Assembly: GCF_029207565.1 (NCBI RefSeq)
Contig: NZ_JANCMW010000004.1
Coordinates: forward strand, 1-64,000
DNA: 64,000 nucleotides
DNA from: Marinobacter iranensis
GTDB lineage: Bacteria; Pseudomonadota; Gammaproteobacteria; Pseudomonadales; Oleiphilaceae
Direction of reading: 5' to 3'
The notes beneath the pieces were generated by a model. That model searched no databases. It saw only the letters and a program-made list of their open reading frames with translations, and was not told the origin of the DNA. Positions 26,970 through 42,163 of this stretch are shown one piece after another. Position 1 is the first letter of the stretch, and each line of letters opens with the position of its first letter. The translations under genes were made by a program, and so were the position numbers.

Positions 26970-28845
26970 AGCGCGACACATTCTGGCTGAGGGTGTTGCC
27001 AATCGACTCGATCTGACCGCTGTAAACATCGTTTTCGCTGGCAGCTTTGGCAGCTTCCTGCCCCTGGTCTGCTATGCGGGTGATGGACGAGTTCAGTTCC
27101 TCAGTCACTGACGTCTGCTCTTCAGACGCCGTCGCAATCTGGGAAGTCATCTGGCTGATCGATGTGATGGCATCAGCAATCCGGTTAAGCGATTCCATGG
27201 CATCCTGGGCTTTTTCCATACTCACATTGGAAACCGCGGTTGATGCTTTCATGACGTCAACAGCCTGATTTGCCCCACTCTGCAGGCGTTCGATCATGTT
27301 GTTGATTTCCTTGGTGCTGTCCTGGGTGCGACGGGCAAGGTTGCGCACCTCATCGGCGACCACCGCAAAGCCACGGCCTGCATCCCCTGCCCTGGCCGCC
27401 TCGATGGCCGCGTTCAGCGCCAGCAGGTTGGTCTGTTCGGCAATGCCCTGAATCACCTCAAGAACAGACGTAATGTCGGTAACATCCTTGCCGAGCTTGT
27501 CGATAACCTCAGCCGCGGCATTAATCTCCTTGGACAACTTCTGCACCGCATCCCTGGAGGCAGTGACGGTTTCGAGCGAGGCGCGGCTGTCTGCATCGGC
27601 CGTGTTGGATGCATCCGCCGTCTGCTGGGCGTTCTGTGCAATCTCTCCCGCAGCTGCGGACATTTCATTGATCGCAGTGGCCACCATATCAATCTCGGCC
27701 TGCTGCTTTTCCACGCTGTCGCGGCTGGTGCTGGCGGTATCCCGTAGCGAGGAAACGTTATCTCCCAGTTCTGAAGTGCCTCGCTGAACATCGCGAACCA
27801 CATTCTGTACATTCTCCACAAAACTGTTGAATTCCGCGGCCAGTTTGCCGAATTCATCGTTGGCACTGTCGTCCAGGCGCTTGGTGAGATCCGCCTCGCC
27901 ACTGGCGATGGAGGCCATGGCCGCATTAAGCCTGTGGACCGGCGCCATCAGCACTCGGATGCCGAAGTGCAGGATGACCAGTGACACCAGCAAACCAATA
28001 ACCGCGATGATCAGCCCCGTTACGCGCGCGGCCTCAACCGGCGCATTGATCTTGCCTTCATTGATGAAAGTGCCGAGATACCATTCAACACCACGGGCAC
28101 CTTTTATCCGGTGGAAACTGGCTGTCCAGTTGGTTTCGCCCGCATCGTAACGGTGCGCCTCTCCGCTGAGCCGAGGTTCTTCCCCCAGAAGGCTATTGAT
28201 CTTCTTACCCACCAGCTTCTGGTCTGGATGGAACAACACGGTGCCATCGTCACTGATCAGCGCAGCGTAGCCGGTATCAGCCAGGGTGATTGCGGAAAGG
28301 GTTTGTTCGATAGTCTTAAGGGCAATATCACCACCGACAACGCCCTGGTAGGCGCCACGCTTGACCGGCGCCAGGGTGGAAATGATCGTACCGCCAGTGC
28401 CCGCGTCCAGATACGGCTCTGTGAAGGAGGCCGAGCCCATTTGCTTTGCCTGCTTGAACCAGGGGCGGGTACGTGGGTCATAATCACTGGGCAGCGTGGC
28501 TTCAGAGGCGTCGTCCTTCATCAGCATGTAGCCATCATCGCGCCCGACATACACATCAATGAAACCGCCGCCTGTGGTTGCAGCCGCCAGGATGACCCTT
28601 GCCTCCGAGTCTGTCTCGACCGACTCCAGAGCCCTTGCCGTTGATTCCGTCATCGCAAGGCGGGTATTGAGCCAATCGGCAATACTGGACGTACTCTGGG
28701 CCACGGTGTCCTCAATCAGCGCATCCACATAGGTGTCCGTGGTGTCCTGTAGCCTGAGGTTGCCGCTGATGGTGAACGCCCCCATAACAAGCAAAAGCAA
28801 AATACCGAAGGCAATGAGCAACTTCTGGCCAAAACTCAGGTTCAT
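26959..28845 (-). CDS. Methyl-accepting chemotaxis protein with dCache sensor
   Basis: A 628-residue receptor: transmembrane helix about 7-28, a large periplasmic double-Cache domain (about 35-275, with [15 protein letters not shown] and [12 protein letters not shown], typical of dCache_1), a second helix about 280-300, HAMP, and a cytoplasmic signalling hairpin containing [19 protein letters not shown]. The dCache type often senses amino acids or other small organics. The ATG at 28845 is preceded by AAGGA; a frame extending to 29052 overlaps the divergent gene and is rejected. Confidence 0.9.
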
Positions 28846-29031
28846 TTCTCGGGTCCTTTTCGGGTCATTCTGGTCGCGGGGTGCAAGCATACAGCGTGTT
28901 GGCTGCGTGTTCTGTATAAGTTTGTTTTCGGCATTTGCGGCGAAGTCTTTAACGCTATCTGATAAAATGGCACGAACATTCAACGATTTTCTCCAGAACT
29001 TTCCTTCTGCATCCAACGGGAGCTGCCACGT

Positions 29032-30579
29032 ATGGCCCACGAAGAACTGCACCTCAACCTTCGTAACCTGACCAACGATGACTACCCCCAGCTCCAGCGT
29101 TTAATGGACAGGGTTTACGATGACATCGGCGGCGCCTGGCCCGAAGACACCATCAAGGCGCTGGTTGACCAGTTCCCGGACGGGCAGATCTGCATTGAGG
29201 AATCCGGCGAATTGATCGCCGTGGCACTCACTGTCTGCGTCAAGTATGAGCGATTCAGCAACCCCCATACCTATGACGACCTGATACTGCGAAATGAGAA
29301 AATCTGGCACAACGCCAAAGGCGATTCGCTTTACGGGCTGGATGTGTTTATCCATCCGGACTATCGCGGTTACCGCCTTGGCCGGCGCCTGTATGAGGCT
29401 CGCAAGGAGCTGTGTCGCTCCATGAACCTGCGCGCCATCCTGGCGGGCGGCCGTATCCCCGGCTACCACAAGTATTCGGACCAGTATTCCCCGGAAGAAT
29501 ACATCCAGCGAGTGGATCGCAAGGACATCTACGACCCCATCCTCAGCTTCCAGCTGTCTAACGATTTCCAGGTCACCCGGCTGATGCACAAGTATCTGCC
29601 GGAAGACGAGAAGTCCTTGGGCTACGCCACCCTGCTGGAGTGGCGGAACATCCTCTATACGCCGCCTTCACCGGTGCTCAGTGTCAAGAAAACACAGGTG
29701 CGCCTGGGTGCGGTCCAATGGCAGATGCGTGAGTTCACGTCGGTGGAAGAAGTGTTGGAACAGGTCGAGTACTTCGTGGATGCCCTGTCGGACTACAAGA
29801 GCGATTTCGCGCTGTTTCCCGAGTTTTTCAACGCCCCACTGATGGGCCTGACGGACCAGTTGGACCAGACCCGCGCCATTCGCTTCCTCGCAGGCTTCAC
29901 GGAGCAGTTCCGAAACCAGATGTCGGAAATGGCGGTCAGTTACAACATCAACATCATCACCGGGTCGATGCCCTTGCTGGAAAACGACCGGGTGTATAAC
30001 GTTTCCTATCTTTGCCACCGTGACGGCCGTGTCGATGAGCAGAGAAAAATCCACATTACGCCCCACGAGCGCCGCGACTGGGTCATTGAAGGTGGCGAGA
30101 AATTCAAGGTGTTCGATACGGACGCGGGCCGCGTTGCCATCATGATCTGTTACGACATCGAGTTCCCGGAACTCGGGCGTCTGGCCGCCAGCGATGAGGT
30201 GGATATCATCATGGTGCCGTTCTGGACAGACACCAAGAACGGCTACCTGCGGGTTCGGCACTGCGCCCAGGCCCGTGCCATAGAAAACGAATGTTACGTG
30301 GTGATCACAGGCAGCGTAGGCAACCTGCCCAAGGTCGAGAATCTGGACGTTCAGTATGCCCAGTCCTCGGTATTCTCCCCCTCGGATTTTGCTTTCCCCC
30401 ACGACGCAGTGATGGCGGAAACAACCCCGAACACGGAGATGATCATGTTCTCAGACATGGATCTGGAGAAGCTGAAGCTGGTCCGTAACGAAGGCTCGGT
30501 CACCAACCTGAAAGACCGGCGCACGGATATCTACGCGCTCAACACCATACAAACGGGCCAAAATGATACTGACAGTTGA
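29032..30579 (+). CDS. GNAT acetyltransferase fused to a nitrilase-family amidohydrolase
   Basis: A 515-residue two-domain protein. Residues about 1-205 form a GNAT fold (the acetyl-CoA loop lies in [18 protein letters not shown]). Residues about 220-510 form a carbon-nitrogen hydrolase domain with the triad Glu (FPEFFN), Lys (KIHITPHE) and Cys (ICYDIEFPE). The fusion is known in bacteria but its substrate is not. A deacylation on one domain and N-acetylation on the other, or amide transfer, are possible. GGGAG precedes the ATG. Confidence 0.87.
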
Positions 30580-30724
30580 AGAACTGCCTGAGAGCCCTAT
30601 CGTATGACACTGAACACGTTGCCAAACTGTCTGAGTGTGGCTATTGTTTAACCATACACATCCAAGGTCACTCCCACGGGGTGTCACCCGGGCAAGCCCG
30701 GAGTCCAACAGAGATCGCGTTTAA

Positions 30725-31123
30725 ATGAACGAAGCACTGCCGGATCTTGTTGCACATTTCCACATAAAGCGTGGCCTGTTCCGTCGCGAACGGGTGGAAG
30801 CCGCGCTGTTCGAGCTGGATAATTTCGGTTGTGTCATCAAGACCGACAAGGTTTTCAATCCCGGTGACACAATCATTCTGGACCTCGTCATGGAAATGCC
30901 GTTTGACAACATCAGGGCTGATGGCATTACCGGCCTGGTGACCGAGCGTAGAAAGCACTGCAGCAATTTCTTTTATTCGGTTGATTTTGTTGAACTTAAT
31001 GACAGCTCTTCTTCAGCCCTGGCCGAGAAGCTCAGGCGCATCCGGGAAGTGGTCGGTAAAAAGCAGTCACTGAAATCCAGACGATCCTCCGGGCCCGCCT
31101 CCGGCCTCCGGCAAATGGCCTGA
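30725..31123 (+). CDS. PilZ-like domain protein
   Basis: A 132-residue cytoplasmic protein with a single small beta-barrel-like domain. RRERVEAALFELDNFGCVIKTD resembles a PilZ RxxxR...(D/N)xSxxG core with the serine replaced (LDNFGC), and ADGITGLVTERR follows. If it is PilZ, c-di-GMP binding may be altered. The basic tail (SLKSRRSSGPASG) is disordered. It lies upstream of the AlgP-like gene on the same strand with a 43-bp gap. Confidence 0.55.
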   Translation: MNEALPDLVAHFHIKRGLFRRERVEAALFELDNFGCVIKTDKVFNPGDTIILDLVMEMPFDNIRADGITGLVTERRKHCSNFFYSVDFVELNDSSSSALAEKLRRIREVVGKKQSLKSRRSSGPASGLRQMA

Positions 31124-31166
31124 ACCCACCCGTATACTCAAATCGCACCGTAAGGAGACAGCCCTC

Positions 31167-31925
31167 ATGGCCAAGAAAGCCAAAAAGCAGAATGTTGATA
31201 AAGTCGTCAAGAAAGTGAATAAAGAGTTTGAAAAAACGTCGTCACAGATCGAAAAGCTGATCAACGATGCCCTCAAACAGTTCGACGGCCTCCAGAACCA
31301 GATTCAGGAACCCGTTCGCAAACTGTTGAAGGAACTGGATGAACTTCGTGACCGCGAAATGAAGCGCTTCAGCGATGAATATGAGCGCCGTCTGGGAGAG
31401 TTCCAGGAATTGCAGAACAACATCCTCGACCGCCTTGGCATCGCCAGTAAGGAAGCCAAAGAGGACGTACAAAAAGCTGCGGATAAAGCCGCCCAAAAGG
31501 CACCGTCTTCTGTCGCTGCCAAGTCTGCCCCGAAAAAAGCGGCAACCAGCAAAACAACTGCCAAAAAGCCGGCTGCAAAGAAGGCAACAACGGCCAAGAA
31601 AGCCGCCAAGGCCAAGGCCGGTACAACGGCCAAAAGCCCGGCTTCCACTGCGAAGGCCGCACCTGCTAAAGCAGCGCCAAAAAAGACCGCTACCGCTGCA
31701 AAGAAACCGGCAGCGGCAAAGCGTACTCCCAAGCCGAAGGACAAGAGCGATCTGACGCAGGTCAAAGGCATCGGCCCCGCCACCGCCCGGAAAATGAAAG
31801 AGGCAGGTATTACATCGGTTGACCAGATCGCCAACCCCTCGGCGGCCGACCAGGAAAAGCTGAAGGCGTTCTCGAACGTTAAAGGCTTCAGCACCTTTAG
31901 TGACGAAGCCAAGAAAGTCATTTAA
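31167..31925 (+). CDS. AlgP-like histone-H1-type protein with phasin-like N terminus
   Basis: A 252-residue protein in three parts: an N-terminal amphipathic coiled coil (about 1-95) resembling phasins; a low-complexity Lys/Ala/Pro-rich tail (about 96-195, many KKAA and AKKP repeats) like AlgP and eukaryotic H1; and a C-terminal helix-hairpin-helix domain (VKGIGPATARKMKEAGITS). Such proteins bind DNA or polyhydroxyalkanoate granules. Its TAA stop overlaps the ATG of the selD fusion (TAATG), so the two are translationally coupled. A GGAG site precedes the start. Confidence 0.75.
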   Translation: MAKKAKKQNVDKVVKKVNKEFEKTSSQIEKLINDALKQFDGLQNQIQEPVRKLLKELDELRDREMKRFSDEYERRLGEFQELQNNILDRLGIASKEAKEDVQKAADKAAQKAPSSVAAKSAPKKAATSKTTAKKPAAKKATTAKKAAKAKAGTTAKSPASTAKAAPAKAAPKKTATAAKKPAAAKRTPKPKDKSDLTQVKGIGPATARKMKEAGITSVDQIANPSAADQEKLKAFSNVKGFSTFSDEAKKVI

Positions 31926-34201
31926 TGCAACAATCCGAACAGCCTGTTTTACGGGACATTGTCCTGGTTGGCGGCGGACACAGCCATGTTGGGGTTCTCA
32001 AGCGTTTCGCCATGAACCCCGTGCCTGGTGTCCGCCTGACACTCATCTGCAGGGACACCCACACGCCCTACTCCGGCATGCTGCCCGGCTACGTGGCCGG
32101 GCACTATTCCTACGATGACGTCCATATCGACCTCAGCAAACTGGCGGAATTTGCCGGCGCGCGCTTCTACCGGGATGAAGTCACCGGGATAGACCGCTCC
32201 CGGAAACGCGTTGTTTGCCGCTCCCGGCCGGATGTGCCTTACGACATCCTCTCCGTGAATATTGGCTCATCCCCCCGGGTTGGCGATGTCAACGGCGCCA
32301 CGGAGCATGCGGTACCGGTCAAGCCCATTAACGGCTTCAATAACCGCTGGCTGTCCCTTTTGTCGCGCCTTGAAAACCACGAAGGCCCCATGTCCGTTGC
32401 CGTGGTTGGCGCCGGTGCCGGCGGCGTTGAACTTACCCTGGCCATGCAGTTCCGGCTAAGGGCGGAACTGCAGAAGCGCGGCCATGACCCGGACCAGCTT
32501 CACTTTCATCTGTTCGATTCGGAAAGCCAGATTCTGCCAACCCACAATGCGCGGGTGCGAGCGGTCTTTGCTGAAAAGCTGGCTAGCCGGGGCGTGAAGG
32601 TGCACTTGGGCTCGGCCGTTTCAAACGTCGATGCCAACCACCTGATGACCGAGTCTGGCGAGAAACACCCTGTTGACGAAGTTCTCTGGGTGACACGCGC
32701 TGGCGGCCCGGATTGGCTTGCGGATACCGGCCTTGCGCTGGATGAGGGCGGCTTTATCCGGGTGAAGGACACGCTGCAATCGGAATCCGACGACGACATC
32801 TTCGCCGCCGGTGATATTGCCAATATGGTGGACCATCCCCGCGAAAAAGCTGGCGTGTTCGCCGTCCGCCAGGGCCGCCCGCTGGCCGACAACCTTAAGC
32901 GCTATGCCCTGGGTAAAACGCCGAAGCCCTTCAACCCCCAGAAAAAGTGGCTGGCACTGATCAGCACCGGCGACAAGTTTGCGGTCGCTTCCCGGGGTGA
33001 CATGTCCTTTTTCGGTAAGTGGGTCTGGCGCTGGAAAGACAGCATTGATAAACGCTTCATGGCAAAGTTTAATGACCTCCCCGCCATGGAAGAGAACACG
33101 GCGCTGCCCGATACCGGTGCGGCCCAGAACGCCGAGGAAGCCTCCCAGGCCATTTCCGCCGTGGCCATGCGCTGTGGCGGCTGTGGCGCCAAGGTGGGCA
33201 GTACCGTTTTGTCCCGCGCCCTGGGTGAATTGCGCCCGATTGAACGCGACGACATCCTGATCGGCCTGCATGCGCCGGATGACGCCGCTGTACTCACGGT
33301 TCCACCGGGCAAGGCGGTGGTGCACACCGTCGACTTCTTCCGGGCCTTTATCGACGATCCTTACGTGTTTGGCAAAGTGGCCGCCAATCACGCGCTGGGG
33401 GATGTGTTCGCCATGGGCGCCGAAGCCCAGAGCGCGACCGCCGTTGCCACGGTACCCTACGGCATTGAGTCCAAAGTGGAAGACGTGGTCTACCAGATGA
33501 TGTCCGGAGCCGTGGAAGTACTGAATGAAGCCGGTTGCGCCCTGGTCGGAGGCCATACCGGCGAAGGCCGTGAGCTCGCCCTCGGATTCGCCGTTAACGG
33601 CCTGATTGATCCGGATGAAGTGATGAGCAAGGGCGGCCTGCGGGCCGGAGATGTGCTGATTCTGACCAAGCCGATTGGCACCGGCACCCTGTTCGCTGCC
33701 CACGCCAAGCTTGCAGCCAAAGGCCGCTGGATTGACTCGGCGCTCGCCTCAATGATCCAGTCCAACAAGGATGCAGCACAATGCTTGCGCCGATATGGCT
33801 CAAAAGCCTGTACGGATGTGACCGGTTTTGGGTTGCTGGGGCACCTTGTTGAAATGACGCGCCCGTCCGGTGTTGATGCGCAACTGGATCTGGGTGCAAT
33901 CCCGATACTCCCGGGCGCCGAGGAAACCGCAGCAGCCGGAATCCTCAGTTCACTGCAGCCGGCCAATATTCGCCTGCGGCGTGGCATCCGCGACCAGGAG
34001 AAGTGGGTCAAGCACCCCCGCTATCCGTTGATCTTCGACCCCCAGACCGCCGGTGGTCTGCTGGCCAGTGTGCCCGCTGATCAGGCCGATGCCTGCGTCA
34101 GTGAGTTGAAAGCCATGGGTTATCCCCATACGGCGATCATTGGAAAGGTGCTGCCCCAGGACGAAAGCGGGCCTATCGAGCCGATCACGCTCCGGGACTG
34201 A
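31925..34201 (+). CDS. selD: Selenide, water dikinase fused to an NADH-dehydrogenase-like FAD domain
   Basis: A 758-residue fusion. The N-terminal part (about 1-395) is a pyridine-nucleotide-disulfide oxidoreductase related to type-II NADH dehydrogenases, with the FAD loop VGGGHSHVGV and a second dinucleotide loop VGAGAGGVEL. The C-terminal part (about 410-758) is SelD, which makes selenophosphate from selenide and ATP. The active-site segment CGGCGAK has Cys420 and Lys423 at the catalytic positions, so this is a cysteine, not selenocysteine, form. The oxidoreductase domain may reduce selenium species to selenide for the partner domain. Confidence 0.93.
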   Translation: MQQSEQPVLRDIVLVGGGHSHVGVLKRFAMNPVPGVRLTLICRDTHTPYSGMLPGYVAGHYSYDDVHIDLSKLAEFAGARFYRDEVTGIDRSRKRVVCRSRPDVPYDILSVNIGSSPRVGDVNGATEHAVPVKPINGFNNRWLSLLSRLENHEGPMSVAVVGAGAGGVELTLAMQFRLRAELQKRGHDPDQLHFHLFDSESQILPTHNARVRAVFAEKLASRGVKVHLGSAVSNVDANHLMTESGEKHPVDEVLWVTRAGGPDWLADTGLALDEGGFIRVKDTLQSESDDDIFAAGDIANMVDHPREKAGVFAVRQGRPLADNLKRYALGKTPKPFNPQKKWLALISTGDKFAVASRGDMSFFGKWVWRWKDSIDKRFMAKFNDLPAMEENTALPDTGAAQNAEEASQAISAVAMRCGGCGAKVGSTVLSRALGELRPIERDDILIGLHAPDDAAVLTVPPGKAVVHTVDFFRAFIDDPYVFGKVAANHALGDVFAMGAEAQSATAVATVPYGIESKVEDVVYQMMSGAVEVLNEAGCALVGGHTGEGRELALGFAVNGLIDPDEVMSKGGLRAGDVLILTKPIGTGTLFAAHAKLAAKGRWIDSALASMIQSNKDAAQCLRRYGSKACTDVTGFGLLGHLVEMTRPSGVDAQLDLGAIPILPGAEETAAAGILSSLQPANIRLRRGIRDQEKWVKHPRYPLIFDPQTAGGLLASVPADQADACVSELKAMGYPHTAIIGKVLPQDESGPIEPITLRD

Positions 34202-35168
34202 GCCGGGCACGCCCGGCCAACGCCTTCTCAATGGTAGCCAGCAAGGCCGCCTGCTCCGCTTCAGGCGTAAAAAGGCGGGCCAATTCCCGGACGCGGTTGT
34301 GCAGTTCTCCGAGGAACCTGGAGGATTGCTCCGCTTGCTGCAGCACCCTGGCGAGATCGGCCTCGTCGCCAACACGGAAATAGCCGGGATAGTTGTCGCC
34401 CAGCAGGCCAAGGTTTCCGGAAATATCCGATGCAATCACGGGCAGGCCGGCTCTGCAGGCTTCAGACACAACATTGGCGCCGCCCTCCATCAACGAACTG
34501 ATCACCATGGCGCGGGATGAGTGCATCAACCGATGGATAGCGGGCTTGTCCAGCTCCCCCAGCCATTTGAAGCGGGGGTTGGCTTCCTGCTCAGCCAGGG
34601 CCTGCTGCTCCCAGTCCGGGGTATGGGCCTTGCCGGCATTGAATACGCGAATAGCCGAGGTGTCGGGCAATAGCCGTGCCGCCAATGCGGCCCTCAGGGG
34701 GTCTTTCTCCTGGCGCAAGTGCCCGATGACGCAGATATCAAAGGTGTTTTTACGGTCATCCGTCCCGTTTACGGGTTTGTCGGCTGACTGCAGTACCGTG
34801 ACCAATTTATCCGCAAAGCGTTCGGGAATGTCCCGGCCGACCCGATGGTGGAGCCCAACCAGGCAATCGGCAACCTCCATGGAGTTGTGGGTTTGTTCCG
34901 GATAACGGTACTGATGGTCGTAGATATCAGTACCCGTAAGCACGACAATCAATGGCGTTTCCGGGTGCAGGTGCCGGAAGCGGGTCACGGCTTCGTGGCT
35001 TCTCCAGGCGTGGAGCGCAATAAACAGGTCACAGGGCTCATCCGTGTATTCAGTAAGCAAGGACACCTGATGCCCTGCCTGCTGGAGAAGTCCGCTCCAA
35101 CGCTCTGCTGTCGCCCGGTTACCGGCTTTGGACCCGGGCGGCGCGGGCGTGATTAATGCTATTTTCAT
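34185..35168 (-). CDS. senB: SenB-type selenosugar synthase, glycosyltransferase-like
   Basis: A 327-residue GT-B glycosyltransferase-fold protein. The start MKIALITPAPPGSKAGNRAT and the blocks ALHAWRSHEAV and VVLTGTDIYD match the group once called TIGR04348 and now assigned to SenB, which joins selenophosphate to a nucleotide sugar to give a selenosugar in selenoneine biosynthesis. A GT family-1 C-terminal domain (SLMEGGANVVSEACRAGLPVIAS) follows. The gene converges on selD with a 17-bp overlap. No SenA/EgtB-like gene is present in the window. Identification is from remembered family features and should be regarded as likely, not proven. Confidence 0.8.
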   Translation of the reverse strand: MKIALITPAPPGSKAGNRATAERWSGLLQQAGHQVSLLTEYTDEPCDLFIALHAWRSHEAVTRFRHLHPETPLIVVLTGTDIYDHQYRYPEQTHNSMEVADCLVGLHHRVGRDIPERFADKLVTVLQSADKPVNGTDDRKNTFDICVIGHLRQEKDPLRAALAARLLPDTSAIRVFNAGKAHTPDWEQQALAEQEANPRFKWLGELDKPAIHRLMHSSRAMVISSLMEGGANVVSEACRAGLPVIASDISGNLGLLGDNYPGYFRVGDEADLARVLQQAEQSSRFLGELHNRVRELARLFTPEAEQAALLATIEKALAGRARLSPGA

Positions 35169-35316
35169 CGGCGCAGGTGTCCGTAAAGATTTTCATTTTT
35201 GATGGATATCCATAACCTGTTTAGCTCAGTAAATCGTATAGCTGTTCAGAGTTGAGGTAAATCACGGTATTCTGAGTCGCTTCGAACATATCTGAATTAC
35301 ACACAAGGAAATTCAA

Positions 35317-36192
35317 ATGGCCTTGAATCTCATACGGAAGTTAATGGTTTCCAGCCTCTTTTGTTTCGGCGCAGCGTCTGCCTCGGCGGAAACGTTTGTG
35401 TTCACTGCAATCCCGGATGAAGACGAAACCAAACTGGTTGAGCGTTTTCGCGGTGTCGCCGATTACCTGTCCAGCGAACTGGATGTGGATGTGCGTTACA
35501 TACCGGTGAAATCCTATGCCGCCGCCGTCTCCGCGTTTCGCAATAACCAGGTTCAACTGGCCTGGTTTGGTGGATTGTCCGGCGTTCAGGCCCGGCGCCT
35601 GGTACCCGGTTCCGAAGCCATTGCCCAGGGCGTGGAAGACCAGGCTTTCGAGACCTACTTTATTGCCAACACCAGCACTGGTATTCAGCCAGCGGACGAG
35701 CTCTCCGCCCTCGAGGATGAGCTGGAAGGCAAAACCTTTACCTTCGGCTCCAAAGGCTCTACATCCGGGCGCCTGATGCCGGAATTCTACATCCGCGAAA
35801 CCTTTGGCCAGCAGCCAGAAGAGTTCTTTTCGCGGGTGGGCTTCAGTGGCAACCACACACGCACACTCCGTCTGGTTGAAGCGGGCACCTACGAGGTTGG
35901 CGCCCTGAACTTCCAGGTATGGGAGAAGGAACTGGAAAACGGCAACATCGATACCGACGCGGTACAGGTGATCTGGAAGACCCCAACCTACCCGGACTAC
36001 CAGTGGACCATTCGTGGCGATGTGAATGAGCGGTTCGGTGAAGGCTTCAAGCAACGCGTCACCGAAGCATTGCTGAACCTGGACGACCCTGAGCTTCTTG
36101 AAAGCTTCCCGCGCTCTGGATTCATTCCTGCGTCCAATGACGACTATGAGCCCATCAGCAAGACTGCGGAAGAGATTGGAATCCTCGATTGA
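35317..36192 (+). CDS. Periplasmic binding protein of a putative selenium-oxyanion ABC importer
   Basis: A 291-residue PhnD-like binding protein with a signal peptide (about 1-25). FTAIPDEDETKLVERFRGVADYLS and the VQLAWFGGLSGVQAR block are characteristic of the group annotated as putative selenate ABC transporter binding proteins, named for neighbourhood with selD. It should capture a phosphonate-sized oxyanion or selenium compound and hand it to the two following subunits. AAGGAAA precedes the start. The substrate is not experimentally known. Confidence 0.8.
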   Translation: MALNLIRKLMVSSLFCFGAASASAETFVFTAIPDEDETKLVERFRGVADYLSSELDVDVRYIPVKSYAAAVSAFRNNQVQLAWFGGLSGVQARRLVPGSEAIAQGVEDQAFETYFIANTSTGIQPADELSALEDELEGKTFTFGSKGSTSGRLMPEFYIRETFGQQPEEFFSRVGFSGNHTRTLRLVEAGTYEVGALNFQVWEKELENGNIDTDAVQVIWKTPTYPDYQWTIRGDVNERFGEGFKQRVTEALLNLDDPELLESFPRSGFIPASNDDYEPISKTAEEIGILD

Positions 36193-36842
36193 TGACTGGT
36201 TTCGATCTGTCAGGCCTAACGGCGTCGTTTGGGGGGGAGCGGGTCATTGGTCCGCTCTCCCTCAGAGTCCAGCAGGGGGAAAAAGTTGCCCTGGTTGGCA
36301 AAAGCGGAGCCGGAAAGTCGACCCTCATGCGCCTGATCCACGAGCAGGTTAACCGTGACGCCTCCCTTGTTCCCCAGGAGCTGGGCCTGGTAAACGCGTT
36401 GCCGGTGTTCCATAACGTATTCATGGGGCAACTGGACAGGCACCGTAGCTGGTACAACACCGTCACCCTCGTGCGGCCATTCTCCCGCGACCGGGATGGC
36501 GTGCGGGAACTGCTGAAAGCACTGGGTATGCCGGAAAAGCTATGGATACCCACTGCGTCCTTGTCTGGTGGACAGCGGCAGCGTGTGGCAATTGCCCGGG
36601 CCCTGTATCGCAATGCTCCACTGCTACTGGCCGATGAGCCTATTTCCGCCCTGGATGGGCCTATGGCGCATCAGGTAATGCAGTTGCTGAAAGAACACTT
36701 TTCAACCAGTGTGTTTGCGCTTCATGATGTTGACATGGCGCTCGCCTACTGCAACCGAATCGTCGGTATCCAGGATGGCCAGATAGCGCTTGACGAGCCC
36801 GCCGAGCGATTGGTGGCCTCAGACATCATGTCTCTTTACTAG
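36192..36842 (+). CDS. ABC transporter ATPase, PhnC-like
   Basis: A 216-residue ATP-binding subunit with Walker A GKSGAGKST (36-44), Q-loop VPQELGLV, signature LSGGQRQR, Walker B PLLLADEP and H-loop ALHDVD. It resembles PhnC but is short. Its ATG overlaps the stop codon of the binding-protein gene (TGATG), so it is translated with it. It powers import through the following permease. Confidence 0.88.
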   Translation: MTGFDLSGLTASFGGERVIGPLSLRVQQGEKVALVGKSGAGKSTLMRLIHEQVNRDASLVPQELGLVNALPVFHNVFMGQLDRHRSWYNTVTLVRPFSRDRDGVRELLKALGMPEKLWIPTASLSGGQRQRVAIARALYRNAPLLLADEPISALDGPMAHQVMQLLKEHFSTSVFALHDVDMALAYCNRIVGIQDGQIALDEPAERLVASDIMSLY

Positions 36843-36859
36843 CGAAGCCGACCCGTTTC

Positions 36860-38326
36860 ATGCTCCAGTCCCCGACGGTCCGAACCAGCCTAATTTTCCT
36901 CGCCATTGCGTTGGTAGCGCTGCTGTTTACCGATATTGCCATCACCGCCTCCAACCCCTGGCGGGATCTCGGTAATTTCTTCCTCGGTGTGGTAACACCC
37001 AACTTCTTCAGCAGCGAAGGCCTGATGACGGCTTTACTCCGAACGGTGGCCTTTGCGTTCGTTGGGGTCGCCCTGGGCAGCGTTTGCGGGTTTCTTTTGG
37101 CGTTGGTGTACCGTTGGCTGCCCGTAAGGATTATGTGTGCCTTTGTGCGAGCCATACACGAGTTGTTCTGGGCGCTGATTTTTTTGCAGTTTTTCGGGTT
37201 CCATCCACTGACGGGCGTGTTGGCGATTGCCATTCCCTACTCCGGCATCTTCGCCAAGGTCTATTCAGAAATCCTCGACGAAGCCGATCCCGAGCCGGGC
37301 CGGTTGCTGCCCCCTCGCACCGGTGTGATTGCCGCGTTTCTCTACACCCGCATACCGGATTGCTGGGTCCAGATGCGAACCTACACCGCTTACCGGCTTG
37401 AGTGCGGCCTTCGGTCCAGCGCCATTCTGGGCTTTGTCGGGCTACCTACCCTCGGGTTTTATCTGGAATCGGCGTTTTCCCAGGGCCACTACTCCGACGC
37501 TGGCGCCATGCTGATTCTTTTCTACGTCCTGATCGCGACCATGCCGCTCTGGGTCAGGCCCAAACTGTTACCCGTTTATCTCGTTGGCGCCCCGTTTTTC
37601 CTCGGCGAAGGGCTGCCCATCGTCTGGGGCAATGTTGCCCGCTTCTTCACCCAGGATATTGTGCCATCGCCCTTACGGGGTGAAGAGGGTTGGTCGGGCA
37701 TGGGCCCATGGCTAGGCGATATGCTCATCAATCAGGCCATGCCGGGCATCTGGAACACAGTGCTCCTCACCCAGGTTGCCCTGGTGGCGACCGGCATCAT
37801 TGCCCTGCTGGCCTTCCCGTTGATCTCCACCCATTTCGGCGGGCCGGTGCGCCGCACCTCCGGCCATGTGTTCCTTGTGATCATGCGCTCAACGCCGGAA
37901 TACATTCTGGCCTACATCCTGCTACAACTCTGGGGGCCTTCAATGCTACCCGCTGTGGTGGCATTGGCGCTGCACAATGGCGGCATTATTGGCCACCTTA
38001 TCGGCCGTCAATCCAGTACCATCCGCCTGAGAACAGACGCACCAACCGGCCTGGACCGGTACACCTATGAACTCGTCCCCAGGGTATACCGCTCATTTCT
38101 GGCTTTCCTGTTTTACCGCTGGGAAATCATCATGCGGGAAACCGCCATCCTGGGTATCCTGGGTATCTACACACTGGGCTTTTACGTCGACAGTGCCATC
38201 CAGAACATCCAGTTCGACCGTGCCATGGTGCTGATTCTGATCACCGCATCCCTGAATATCGGTGTTGATATCCTGGGCCGCTATATCCGCAGGAAGCTCG
38301 CCCTGCAGACCATGCCTACCTGCTAG
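36860..38326 (+). CDS. ABC transporter permease, tandem PhnE-like
   Basis: A 488-residue membrane protein that contains two PhnE-like permease halves in one chain: each ends with a conserved coupling loop and a final G-x-LG-x-Y segment (SSAILGFVGLPTLGFYLES in the first half, ETAILGILGIYTLGFYVDS in the second). A fused pair would provide both transmembrane halves of the importer. It lies 17 bp after the ATPase gene. Usual PhnE is half this length. Confidence 0.85.
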   Translation: MLQSPTVRTSLIFLAIALVALLFTDIAITASNPWRDLGNFFLGVVTPNFFSSEGLMTALLRTVAFAFVGVALGSVCGFLLALVYRWLPVRIMCAFVRAIHELFWALIFLQFFGFHPLTGVLAIAIPYSGIFAKVYSEILDEADPEPGRLLPPRTGVIAAFLYTRIPDCWVQMRTYTAYRLECGLRSSAILGFVGLPTLGFYLESAFSQGHYSDAGAMLILFYVLIATMPLWVRPKLLPVYLVGAPFFLGEGLPIVWGNVARFFTQDIVPSPLRGEEGWSGMGPWLGDMLINQAMPGIWNTVLLTQVALVATGIIALLAFPLISTHFGGPVRRTSGHVFLVIMRSTPEYILAYILLQLWGPSMLPAVVALALHNGGIIGHLIGRQSSTIRLRTDAPTGLDRYTYELVPRVYRSFLAFLFYRWEIIMRETAILGILGIYTLGFYVDSAIQNIQFDRAMVLILITASLNIGVDILGRYIRRKLALQTMPTC

Positions 38327-38358
38327 CTGACTACCCCGTCACAGTTCCGCAGATTCAC

Positions 38359-38376
38359 ACCCGGTTTGGCCCGGGT
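38359..38376 (+). terminator. Stem-loop after the selenium-type ABC operon
   Basis: ACCCGG (38359-38364) and CCGGGT (38371-38376) form a six-base stem with a six-base loop, 32 bp after the permease stop. A short pyrimidine run follows (TCCCTT). Likely a modest terminator. Confidence 0.4.
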
Positions 38377-38447
38377 TCCCTTAGTGCTCAGATATACACT
38401 TGGTTACAATCCGATAACGGATGTAACAAACACCAGAGCAATGCGGA

Positions 38448-38930
38448 ATGCTTATGATGAACAGCCTTGGAAATGCGTCACCTCCGCAGCCTGTCCAGAA
38501 ACGTCCAGTTTCCGAGCGCCAGCCACCCCAACAGGGGCGCTCAGACAAGTGCGGGCTGATCACCCAGTTGCATATTCTGATCAGCCTCCAGGTGAGAGAC
38601 TGCCGGGAACAGGGGCTGGAGATCGAGACCGCTCCACAGGCTGTAAGGGAATACGCGGTTGCCTGGTTATATGGTGCGGCCTGCGCCCTGTGTGATAAGC
38701 CGCAGCGCCATTCCGGCGCACTGATCAACCTCGTCAGTCAGTTGGCCAGTCGTAAAACCGGCATCCGGCAACCGGAGGCTGTCCAGGCGCTTTCAACGCT
38801 CACGGGTAACGCCACCCTGCTGGCCTGTTTCAGGAACGGTGTGAGTGGTGCGGAGCACTGGAGCGGGCATCGGTATGTTCCGCAGGAGAACAGCCTTTAC
38901 GTGGCTGTCACCTCGAACGCGTTTATCTGA
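38448..38930 (+). CDS. Hypothetical protein
   Basis: I do not recognise this 160-residue protein. It has a disordered Pro/Gln-rich N terminus (about 1-35), then a mostly helical region with Cys residues at about 35, 51, 79 and 82 (the last in ACALCDKPQRHSG) and 126. No signal peptide or membrane segment is seen. The true start could be ATG 38448, 38454 or 38457; none has a good ribosome-binding site. It stands between the selenium-type ABC operon and a convergent hypothetical gene. Confidence 0.5.
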   Translation: MLMMNSLGNASPPQPVQKRPVSERQPPQQGRSDKCGLITQLHILISLQVRDCREQGLEIETAPQAVREYAVAWLYGAACALCDKPQRHSGALINLVSQLASRKTGIRQPEAVQALSTLTGNATLLACFRNGVSGAEHWSGHRYVPQENSLYVAVTSNAFI

Positions 38931-38958
38931 CCGAAATTGTAAGAAGGACTGAGCCCGT

Positions 38959-39276
38959 TCAGTTACGGGCTGCGGGGCGTGTAGCGGTGTCTTCCAGTGC
39001 CCAATCGGTCCCCAGGTACTCGGCATCTACGGTTTCCGGACTGTCTGCCGGGGCACCGGTTATCGCGGGCCGGGAAAAGCTGCCATCCTCCTGGCGCTCC
39101 ATGCTCTCTACGTCCACGGAACGCACGACGTAGCTGGCTCCTTTACTCGTCACCTTTGTGCGATGGCTGAGCCCGAAGATGAAGCGGCAATAATCGAGTT
39201 TGAGCTGAAGCAGGTCCTGTTCCGCCTTCTGGATTTTCCTCAGCAGGACTTTCTGAACGCTATCGCCATAATCCAT
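38959..39276 (-). CDS. Hypothetical small protein
   Basis: A 105-residue protein from the ATG at 39276, preceded by AGGGA. The N-terminal third is a Lys/Leu-rich helix (VQKVLLRKIQKAEQDLLQLK) that could form a coiled coil; the rest is polar and probably disordered, ending in ALEDTATRPAARN. No family recognised. It follows another hypothetical gene on the same strand. Confidence 0.5.
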   Translation of the reverse strand: MDYGDSVQKVLLRKIQKAEQDLLQLKLDYCRFIFGLSHRTKVTSKGASYVVRSVDVESMERQEDGSFSRPAITGAPADSPETVDAEYLGTDWALEDTATRPAARN

Positions 39277-39345
39277 ATGCGCTTCCCTGGACGATTGTTG
39301 TGATTCCGTGATTTTACACAATCCTGACACACTGTCATCCTGTCG

Positions 39346-39834
39346 TCAGGCGCGGCCCTCGGCAATAAAGGTCAGTTTTACAGGCATCGCGGTTTCCTGG
39401 TCCATGCCGGCCTGCAGGTCAACTCTCCAGGTCATTTTGGGGTCCGTGGTGCAGAAAGGCGCCGTAAACCGCGCCTCCCATAACTGGCCTCCATCATCCG
39501 GCGCCAGCCCGGCCCTGGCCATGGGAACCGGGTACTCGCCCAGGTACATGGACTCACCGCGCAACACAGCCAGCAAACGGGGCTGGCTGCTGTCTGTCTT
39601 TATCGTCAGGTGATACTCCGTGCCCTGCCCCTGAACGCCCTCTTTTTTCAGCTGTGCCTGCCAGTTCCTGCCCTGTTGTTCCCAACTGCACGTATCATTG
39701 AGCAGGTCGCATAGCACCTCACCCTGATCGGCCGGGGCGCGGTCTTCAGACATCAGCCAGCGCGGGCCGAATATACCCAGCGCGATCACACCAATGATGG
39801 CCAACACAGCAACAAGCGCTCTCAACACATCCAA
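39346..39834 (-). CDS. Membrane-anchored hypothetical protein
   Basis: A 162-residue protein with one N-terminal membrane helix (about 3-27) and no clear cleavage site, followed by an extracytoplasmic beta-rich domain with three Cys, two close together (CDLLNDTCSWEQ) and one near the C terminus (FCTTDPKM), so a disulfide is possible. The gene starts 117 bp before the divergent YadG-like gene. No known function. Confidence 0.55.
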   Translation of the reverse strand: MDVLRALVAVLAIIGVIALGIFGPRWLMSEDRAPADQGEVLCDLLNDTCSWEQQGRNWQAQLKKEGVQGQGTEYHLTIKTDSSQPRLLAVLRGESMYLGEYPVPMARAGLAPDDGGQLWEARFTAPFCTTDPKMTWRVDLQAGMDQETAMPVKLTFIAEGRA

Positions 39835-39950
39835 CCCTCCACGGTTAAGCGGGCATTATGGGGATAATCGCTGACAAGGCAAAGCTTTCTAAATCATCAC
39901 CGGTCATGAGAAAATACCGCGCTTTGATCCACCACCAACAGGACAAGCCA

Positions 39951-40871
39951 GTGCAACCGGATATCTCCGTCAAGCACCTCAACAAAGTCTACGCGGATGG
40001 TTTCAGGGCCCTCAACGACATCAACCTCGACATCAAGCCTGGCGAGATCTTCGCCCTGCTGGGGCCGAACGGCGCCGGCAAGACCACGTTGATCAGCATC
40101 ATCTGTGGCATTGTGAACCTATCGGAAGGCGAAGTGAAAGCGGCCGGCTACGACATCGTCAAGGATTACCGCAAGGCCCGCGAAAGCATCGGCCTGGTTC
40201 CCCAGGAGCTCAATACCGACGCCTTCGAGACCGTCTGGGACGCCGTCTCGTTCAGCCGGGGCCTGTTCGGCAAACCACCCGCGCCGGACCACATCGAAAA
40301 AGTGCTGAAAGACCTGTCGCTGTGGGACAAACGCAACAACCGCATCATGTCCCTGTCGGGGGGCATGAAACGCCGTGTGATGATTGCCAAGGCACTGTCC
40401 CACGAACCTCGCATCCTGTTCCTGGACGAGCCCACGGCCGGTGTGGACGTCGAGTTGCGCCGGGACATGTGGGAAATGGTGCGCAAGCTGCGGGAAAACG
40501 GTGTCACCATCATCCTCACCACCCACTACATCGAGGAAGCGGAGGAAATGGCCGACCGCATCGGGGTTATCCGCCACGGCGAGATCATCCTGGTCGAGGA
40601 CAAATCCCGGCTGATGAGCAAACTGGGCAAGAAGGAACTTCGCCTGCACCTGCAGAACCCACTGGAAAAAATACCGGGAGAACTCATCCTGGAGCCCCTG
40701 GAGTTGTCGGATGATGGTTACGAGCTGGTCTACACCTTCGACTCCCAACAGGAACAGGCAGGCGTGGCACGGCTGCTGCGAACCCTGGGCGACCTGGGCA
40801 TCGAATACCGGGATCTTCAGACCAGGGAAAGTTCCCTGGAAGAGATTTTTGTTGGCCTGGTGCATGAATAA
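39951..40871 (+). CDS. yadG: ABC-2 type transporter ATPase (YadG-like)
   Basis: A 306-residue ATPase from a GTG at 39951, chosen because AGGACAAG precedes it and it gives the length of E. coli YadG (308); upstream ATGs at 39858 and 39906 would add up to 31 poorly conserved residues. Walker A is GPNGAGKTT, the Q-loop [14 protein letters not shown], the signature LSGGMKRR, and Walker B ILFLDEP. The C-terminal extension (about 215-306) ends [14 protein letters not shown] as in YadG. It works with the permease 28 bp downstream; the exported substrate is unknown. Confidence 0.85.
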
Positions 40872-40898
40872 AACCAACCGGTATGCGGGAGTAACGCA

Positions 40899-41659
<761 letters not shown>

Positions 41660-41660
<1 letters not shown>

Positions 41661-42163
41661 TGCAGCATCGGATACCGGGGCGCAGCCTCAGGGCGTTTTT
41701 GCCTGTGATGGCCCTGCTGTTCTCCGGGTGCCTGGCCGCGCTTCCCGATAACGAGTCGTTGCCAGTGAAGCAGGCCTGCCTGATATCCGGGGAGCAGGCG
41801 GTTCCCATCACCGTCGAAATTGCCAGGACTTCGGCAGAGAGGAGCCGGGGGCTGATGGACAGGGTAAGGCTGGCTCCGCACTCAGGAATGCTGTTTGTCT
41901 ACAATGACCAGCGCCGGGCGGATCACGGCTTCTGGATGTACCGCACACTGATTCCGCTGGACATCGCCTACCTGGATCGCGACGGCATCATCGGTGCGAT
42001 TCGCCATATGGTTCCCTGCCCGTCAGACCAGGGCCGGGACTGCCCCACCTATCAGGCGGGCGTCCCTTTTCGCCAGGCACTTGAGATGAACCTGGGCTAT
42101 TTCGAAAGCCAGGGCATTGGCGTGGGAGATCGGCTTTCGCTGGAAGCGACTGACTGCCGTTAG
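41660..42163 (+). CDS. DUF192-domain lipoprotein
   Basis: A 167-residue protein with a lipobox LFSGC (Cys24), then a DUF192 domain: the block RSRGLMDRVRLAPHSGMLFVYND and the following HGFWMYRTLIPLDIAYLD are its hallmarks. It is predicted to be anchored to a membrane facing the periplasm. The start overlaps the stop of the ABC permease gene. DUF192 proteins are widespread and of unknown function; some are linked to cell-envelope or surface-polymer processes. Confidence 0.82.

Follow-up and report, generated by a model that had tools for sequence, protein, structure and literature searches.

The described systems closest to the locus examined here are the selenoneine cluster (SenA, SenB and SenC), the ovoselenol pathway, and the PhnD1-type importers of picocyanobacteria. 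The ovoselenol pathway, with OvsA and its partners, was reportedly described by Kayrouz et al. in Nature Chemistry in 2024 (reference 21 of PMC13188914), and PDB entries 8u41, 8u42 and 8ux5 bear molecule names from it. Ovoselenol is also named in PMC13188914 and PMC12631010. Ndh-SelD fusions, about 40% of the Cys-type SelDs in ocean samples, are reported to carry a CxxC motif (PMC2398784), and mutagenesis of the SenB of Variovorax showed that N20, T23, K158, E231 and E239 matter (PMC10891094). The PhnD of Prochlorococcus, as reported in 2017, binds phosphite, is neither phosphorus-responsive nor linked to phosphorus genes, and belongs to a transporter that is ubiquitous in that genus and whose in vivo function was given there as unknown (PMC5700983). 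The PhnD1 of Synechococcus favours phosphite over phosphate; strains WH8102 and MITS9220 were unable to grow on phosphite, and the authors proposed a constitutive phosphate transporter (PMC10284923). The string "selen" is absent from the main texts of these two importer papers, which name phosphorus ligands alone as bound.

In this study, we analysed a stretch of 64,000 nucleotides from Marinobacter iranensis, called the window below. Five ORFs lie at 31925-38326 in the ORF list of the sequence. The ORFs and their NCBIfam matches bore out the layout proposed by the sequence-only reading, namely an oxidoreductase fused to SelD, a SenB gene converging on it and a PhnDCE-like importer, all adjoining one another (Table 1). 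The SelD and SenB genes share 17 bp at their 3' ends, the importer runs divergently from SenB, and the ATPase gene overlaps the binding protein gene by 4 bp. We consider it quite probable that the window encodes that half of a split selenium pathway which would import selenium, activate it and transfer it to a sugar, and that the last enzyme, an OvsA relative encoded on another contig, would likely put selenium on histidine on the way to ovoselenol. No known RNA element was detected in 28000-42000, and sigma-70-like promoters numbered 0, compared with 2.6 in shuffled sequence. Upstream of the fusion, positions 31167-31925 encode a protein rich in alanine and lysine that carries a helix-hairpin-helix at its C-terminus; its reading frame ends on the first base of the ATG of the SelD fusion. 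A match to this protein lies upstream of the fusion in all 11 of the compared genus loci that hold the fusion.

Table 1. Features of the window locus and of the unlinked OvsA locus in the same genome.
Feature	Position	Strand or setting	Size and basis
Fused NAD(P)/FAD oxidoreductase-SelD (selenide, water dikinase)	31925..34201	+	758 aa; TIGR03169 + TIGR00476
SenB, Se-glycosyltransferase (selenosugar synthase)	34185..35168	-	327 aa; TIGR04348
Divergent gap between senB and importer	35169..35316	.	148 bp; senA position in relatives L193, L194, L203
Importer periplasmic binding protein, PhnD1-like	35317..36192	+	291 aa; TIGR04553
Importer ATPase, PhnC-like	36189..36842	+	217 aa, TTG start; ABC_tran over cut-off
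Importer permease, PhnE-like	36860..38326	+	488 aa; TIGR01097 below cut-off, two stretches
OvsA relative	G000:C219:216161-217537	contig other than the window's	458 aa; PDB-chain search
OvoA-type N-methyltransferase	G000:C219:217548-218291 (start codon inferred)	next to OvsA	TIGR04345

The oxidoreductase part of the fusion scored 517 bits against TIGR03169 (cut-off 310), and the SelD part 302 bits against TIGR00476 (cut-off 125). The SelD part begins CGGCGAK, with a CxxC at C417/C420 followed by K423, which we take to be the catalytic Cys and Lys of SelD. With its N-terminal oxidoreductase and Cys-type SelD bearing the CxxC, the protein looks like an ordinary member of the Ndh-SelD fusions, and no difference from those described was found (PMC2398784 and PMC4561486, as far as their accessible text goes). 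SenB passed TIGR04348 by 114 bits (414 bits, cut-off 300), and its N17, T20, K155, E228 and E236 align with N20, T23, K158, E231 and E239 of V. paradoxus. It matched four solved chains, all SenB-type. A general glycosyltransferase was rejected on this score and these residues. Family models and conserved residues support the earlier view that SelD and SenB are predicted selenium genes. Two positions of the Variovorax enzyme are changed in the window SenB, V157 to E and H235 to N; a role for this pair as a sugar-donor mark of an OvsA partner was rejected, because 6 of 8 SenBs of other genera, leaving Variovorax aside, share both changes. On plasmids, SenB was found in 3 records, all annotated senB.

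The binding protein of the importer has an N-terminal stretch that by eye resembles a signal peptide, and it scored 431 bits against TIGR04553, "putative selenate ABC transporter SBP" (cut-off 250). The best NCBIfam match of the ATPase was PhnC at 159.5 bits, below the cut-off of 266.1. The permease had no Pfam match and scored 194.8 bits against PhnE (TIGR01097), below the cut-off of 216.7; this match falls in two stretches, so the permease is probably two PhnE-like halves in one chain. In a class sample of 369 genomes, with SelD called at E 1e-40 or better, TIGR04553 was over cut-off in 15 (own genome included) and SelD in 87, and all 15 have SelD. When the own genome is excluded, SelD occurs in 14/14 genomes with TIGR04553 vs 72/354 others (86/368 overall; p = 6e-10, kinship ignored). 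A sister protein scoring below the cut-off, at 208-240 bits, occurs in seven genomes of this sample, none of which has SelD, and no such permease was found in the seven fetched stretches. The co-occurrence with SelD supports the prediction that this is a selenium importer, although 6 of 14 class loci have no SelD in the stretch. Two of the sister proteins (L208 6079-7032 and L210 6637-7581) have a histidine kinase as neighbour and come from genomes in which SelD had no match; they are likely sensors rather than importers. One candidate for a pocket residue dividing SelD-linked from SelD-less binding proteins, position 68, was rejected: it is mostly G in SelD-positive rows, but F/Y in L198, L199 and L205.

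Within the genus, 124 genomes were sampled, 108 of which have SenB over cut-off and three of the other 16 are less than 90% complete. The binding protein is over cut-off in 108/108 SenB-positive and 12/16 SenB-negative genomes, indicating that the importer is not tied to SenB or ovoselenol. The binding protein adjoins SenB in all 30 SenB loci compared (own included; 30 of the 108). Beyond those 30, G053 has SenB and the permease without an adjacent binding protein, which is on another contig (L094, L095). In seven SenB-negative genomes, SelD and the importer are adjacent at this chromosomal site, where the neighbouring genes are also the same and SenB alone is missing. In four others (G048, G066, G073 and G096) the importer is apart from SelD, and G021 and G070 have SelD without the importer.

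The closest solved binding proteins are the PhnD1 of Synechococcus (7S6G), with which the window protein shares 47% identity, and of Prochlorococcus (5LQ5). Stretches of both pass TIGR04553, at 333.6 and 294.5 bits, respectively. Eleven positions of 5LQ5, the phosphite-contact, capping and pocket residues given in PMC5700983, were compared (I11, D13, Y46, F90, S126, T127, S128, H158, N176, D205 and Y206), and all eleven are identical in the window protein. The window protein thus resembles PhnD1 in passing the family cut-off and in its ligand site, and it differs in standing beside SelD and SenB. Like phosphite, selenite is a pyramidal oxyanion with three oxygens, so it should fit this site better than selenate. 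Since PhnD1 belongs to TIGR04553 and the phosphite site is shared, the predicted ligand of the importer is selenite and not the selenate of the family name.

The importer might instead be a phosphite/phosphate or phosphonate transporter that merely adjoins selenium genes, which we consider unlikely but deserving of real weight. Phosphite (in the uM range) and phosphate are the ligands of its nearest solved relatives (PMC5700983, PMC10284923), all eleven phosphite-site residues are kept, and the picocyanobacterial copies have no SelD in their flanks. However, a phosphorus importer would not readily account for the presence of SelD in all 15 genomes with TIGR04553 and in none of the seven with the sister protein, which lacks the permease in every stretch and, in both cases inspected, adjoins a histidine kinase, nor for the adjacency of SelD and importer in the seven SenB-negative genomes. 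The reported behaviour of the relatives, PhnD being neither phosphorus-responsive nor phosphorus-linked in Prochlorococcus (PMC5700983) and two Synechococcus strains failing on phosphite (PMC10284923), also argues against it. No ptxD was found among the window neighbours scanned, and no literature tying selenite uptake to a phosphonate-type ABC transporter was found. The earlier claim that the ABC genes bring in selenium therefore stood in part: the co-occurrence of TIGR04553 with SelD favours it, whereas the closest solved relatives, though of the same "selenate" family, bind phosphite, which makes a phosphite substrate, named in that reading as breaking the selenium assignment, an ambiguous criterion.

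The sequence-only reading had observed that SenA is not here. This is true of the window, which has no SenA/EgtB-type gene because both FGE-domain matches of the own genome, a 458-aa and a 307-aa protein, sit on other contigs. Against solved chains, the 458-aa protein scored 640 bits to "Selenoxide synthase OvsA" (8u41/8u42), 181 to SenA, 168 to EgtB and 81 to OvoA, and assignment as EgtB or OvoA was rejected on these lower scores. It is 62.3% identical to 8u41 (281/451 positions), with HX3HXE at 135. In a tree of 40 rows, which also held eight SenA-type rows and one EgtB, the own protein, 29 genus proteins and 8u41 formed one group (100/99) apart from SenA; the support of the SenA group is only 72/0, and a long-branch warning applies to EgtB and L205. 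The stretch MSTLQF...RQAY is present in the 27 of 31 OvsA rows printed and missing from every SenA-type row shown, where YSxPWF...RNFF or something close to it stands instead. The genome thus holds a putative OvsA orthologue, and no SenA by the tree, even though its homologue passes NF041186, the NCBI SenA model (430.9 bits, cut-off 420). Because it passes narrowly, public records may label this protein SenA.

Across the genus, 101 of the 105 genomes that hold an OvsA-range match clear the cut-off of NF041186, so many public SenA labels may be OvsA. A second group of 16 matches to this model, at 320-359 bits, consists of EgtBs, because an EgtD match adjoins each of the 16. Across the genus, the FGE-domain search returned open frames of ~440-590 aa in many genomes (among the matches listed), and the OvoA-type matches to NF041186 have open frames of 717-747 aa, with one of 1086. 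On plasmids, the two top-scoring matches to OvsA carry the label senA, and most others among the matches listed are labelled egtB or have no annotation. One genus protein (L052, G016:C8:423193-424485) scores (513 bits) and groups as SenA in a genome that also has OvsA and EgtD; in G016 a single SenB may therefore serve the synthesis of selenoneine as well as that of ovoselenol.

OvsA and SenB co-occur closely. OvsA-range matches (NF041186, 412-449 bits, the score range of the treed OvsA proteins) were found in 105/108 SenB-positive and 0/16 SenB-negative genomes, 30 of the 105 being placed by the tree (own included) and the rest by score alone (Fisher p = 2e-17, kinship ignored). Among the three exceptions, G056 and G065 have OvsA broken into two frames (L096, L097), perhaps by sequencing error, and the G099 genome is 72% complete. 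On a SelD tree that includes 7 of the 16 SenB-negative genomes, the SenB label needs 4 changes, 2 of them forced by well-supported branches, which suggests that independent events were few. In the 21 genomes with both genes on one contig, the straight distance between senB and OvsA is 1.14-2.67 Mb. SelD is over cut-off in 123/124 genus genomes, and MnmH is present in the own genome and in 123/124 of the genus; SelA had no match in the own genome. At three loci (L009, L010 and L022, of G099, G037 and G015), the 1.5-kb flank around SenB and the binding protein shows no SelD, and these genomes carry a stand-alone SelD elsewhere, at 430 bits and more.

Behind OvsA, 10 bp away by the likely ATG, begins a methyltransferase of the OvoA C-terminal type (TIGR04345, 287 bits, cut-off 170). 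A search of the own genome for EgtD gave no match, so hercynine, which SenA needs, is not expected to be made. Like the ovoselenol pathway, this genome combines SenB, a selenophosphate synthetase, an OvsA relative and an OvoA-type N-methyltransferase, and it differs in carrying SenB, SelD and importer on one contig and OvsA with the methyltransferase on another. Since EgtD gave no match and OvsA-range matches track SenB across the genus, the predicted endpoint is likely ovoselenol rather than selenoneine. The earlier suggestion of a different selenium metabolite or a split pathway appears to apply in both its forms.

In the proposed pathway, the PhnDCE-type importer would bring in selenite, which would be reduced to selenide, perhaps by the fused oxidoreductase. 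The SelD part would then make selenophosphate, an established chemistry assigned here at the family level, and SenB, judging by family and residues, would move selenium onto a UDP-sugar to give a selenosugar. OvsA, by its clade, would couple histidine with the selenosugar in the form of a selenoxide, the sugar being lost, and the adjacent methyltransferase may N-methylate the OvsA product to ovoselenol. Selenophosphate presumably also feeds MnmH for tRNA 2-selenouridine.

OvsA could instead end at 5-selenohistidine, with the neighbouring methyltransferase serving ovothiol or something else. We regard this as improbable for the own genome, where the methyltransferase gene, starting 10 bp behind OvsA, is recognised by the model for the C-terminal part of OvoA, and where the FGE-domain matches are just OvsA and the 307-aa protein, so that there is no OvoA needing a methyltransferase. 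Among relatives, only 14 of 29 OvsA loci have the methyltransferase immediately downstream, so ovoselenol need not be the product of the whole genus. The other 15 (L055-L061, L063, L065, L071, L073, L075, L077, L078 and L080) have no methyltransferase match within 1.5 kb behind OvsA, in favour of 5-selenohistidine there; these strains may have that endpoint or use another methyltransferase. Very unlikely, in our judgement, is selenoneine made by the distant FGE-type enzyme acting as SenA on hercynine, made or taken up: the model NF041186 is passed, EgtD is over cut-off in 14/108 SenB-positive genomes and G016 has a real-SenA-scoring protein, but the own protein groups with solved OvsA, carries MSTLQF/RQAY instead of the SenA-type stretch, and has no EgtD match in its genome. 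Equally hard to credit is a selenosugar that is itself the end product or goes to an enzyme other than OvsA, for the near-perfect joint presence of SenB and OvsA-range matches in 124 genomes outweighs the distance of 1.1-2.7 Mb that deprives the two genes of any linkage as a sign of joint work.

Loci that hold this binding protein in 14 genomes from outside the genus bear on the origin of the window locus. A permease match was found in 14/14, SelD in 8 (one truncated where its contig stops), SenB in 6 and a SenA/OvsA-type gene in 5. Three of them (L193, L194 and L203) have the order fused SelD (+), SenB (-), SenA (+), importer (+), which is the window's order plus SenA in the gap between SenB and importer. 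In L197 these genes are arranged differently, and L205 has a more distant sen trio in the stretch, ~6-9 kb from the binding protein, its SenA-type call not coming from NF041186. The SenAs of L193, L194, L197 and L203 score 473-512 bits against that model. The SenBs of the genus nest with those of L193 and L203 (99/97), and its SelDs (98/87) join the SelD of L193 (100/96; midpoint-rooted tree). The window thus resembles the selenoneine cluster in its order, in a SenB with all tested catalytic residues and in SelD in the role of SenC; it differs in having no senA between senB and the importer, no EgtD match and OvsA in place of SenA. The simplest reading, and the most likely one from these comparisons, is that the locus descends from a selenoneine cluster from which SenA was lost and that OvsA took over. 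The cluster of L195 is also without SenA, so this loss may have happened more than once.

The ovoselenol pathway type is already known (2024); the split arrangement and the link to PhnD1 appear to be new. Marinobacter is not mentioned among the matches listed in the literature on ovothiol, selenoneine and ovoselenol, a search that mostly did not extend to subscription papers. A SenB locus without SenA hereby gains a definite, testable endpoint, in a pathway whose last enzyme the public SenA model would mislabel. Furthermore, the importer family tracks SelD in every class-sample genome that has it, and its solved relatives are never discussed with selenium in the texts searched. We tentatively propose, as a possibility somewhat short of even, that TIGR04553 PhnDCE, including picocyanobacterial PhnD1, until now classed as a phosphite/phosphate protein, is the missing dedicated selenite importer, which would hold pyramidal selenite in the phosphite site and feed SelD, and which in this genus would supply a senA-less cluster re-plumbed to ovoselenol by an unlinked OvsA. 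A selenium ligand, if true, would bear on the Prochlorococcus transporter proposed for phosphate in 2023 (PMC10284923).

With PhnD1 as the lead, 507 loci around PhnD1-like proteins were found and 80 were examined. SelD-type or Sen genes lie within the fetched flank in 7 of the 80; in these flanks no picocyanobacterial PhnD1 stands beside SelD or Sen genes, and MnmH adjoins none of the 80. A SelD match over cut-off occurs somewhere in 17/17 hand-picked PhnD1-locus genomes vs 2/14 control genomes, and the match of the one picocyanobacterium scanned is what NCBI calls "fusion_not_SelD". Three of the loci (L152, L153 and L169, of G138, G139 and G140; two Chloroflexi MAGs and one uncultured bacterium) have a SelD with an in-frame TGA, as would be expected if the protein contains selenocysteine; at L152 and L153 this SelD stands divergently beside the PhnD1-like importer.
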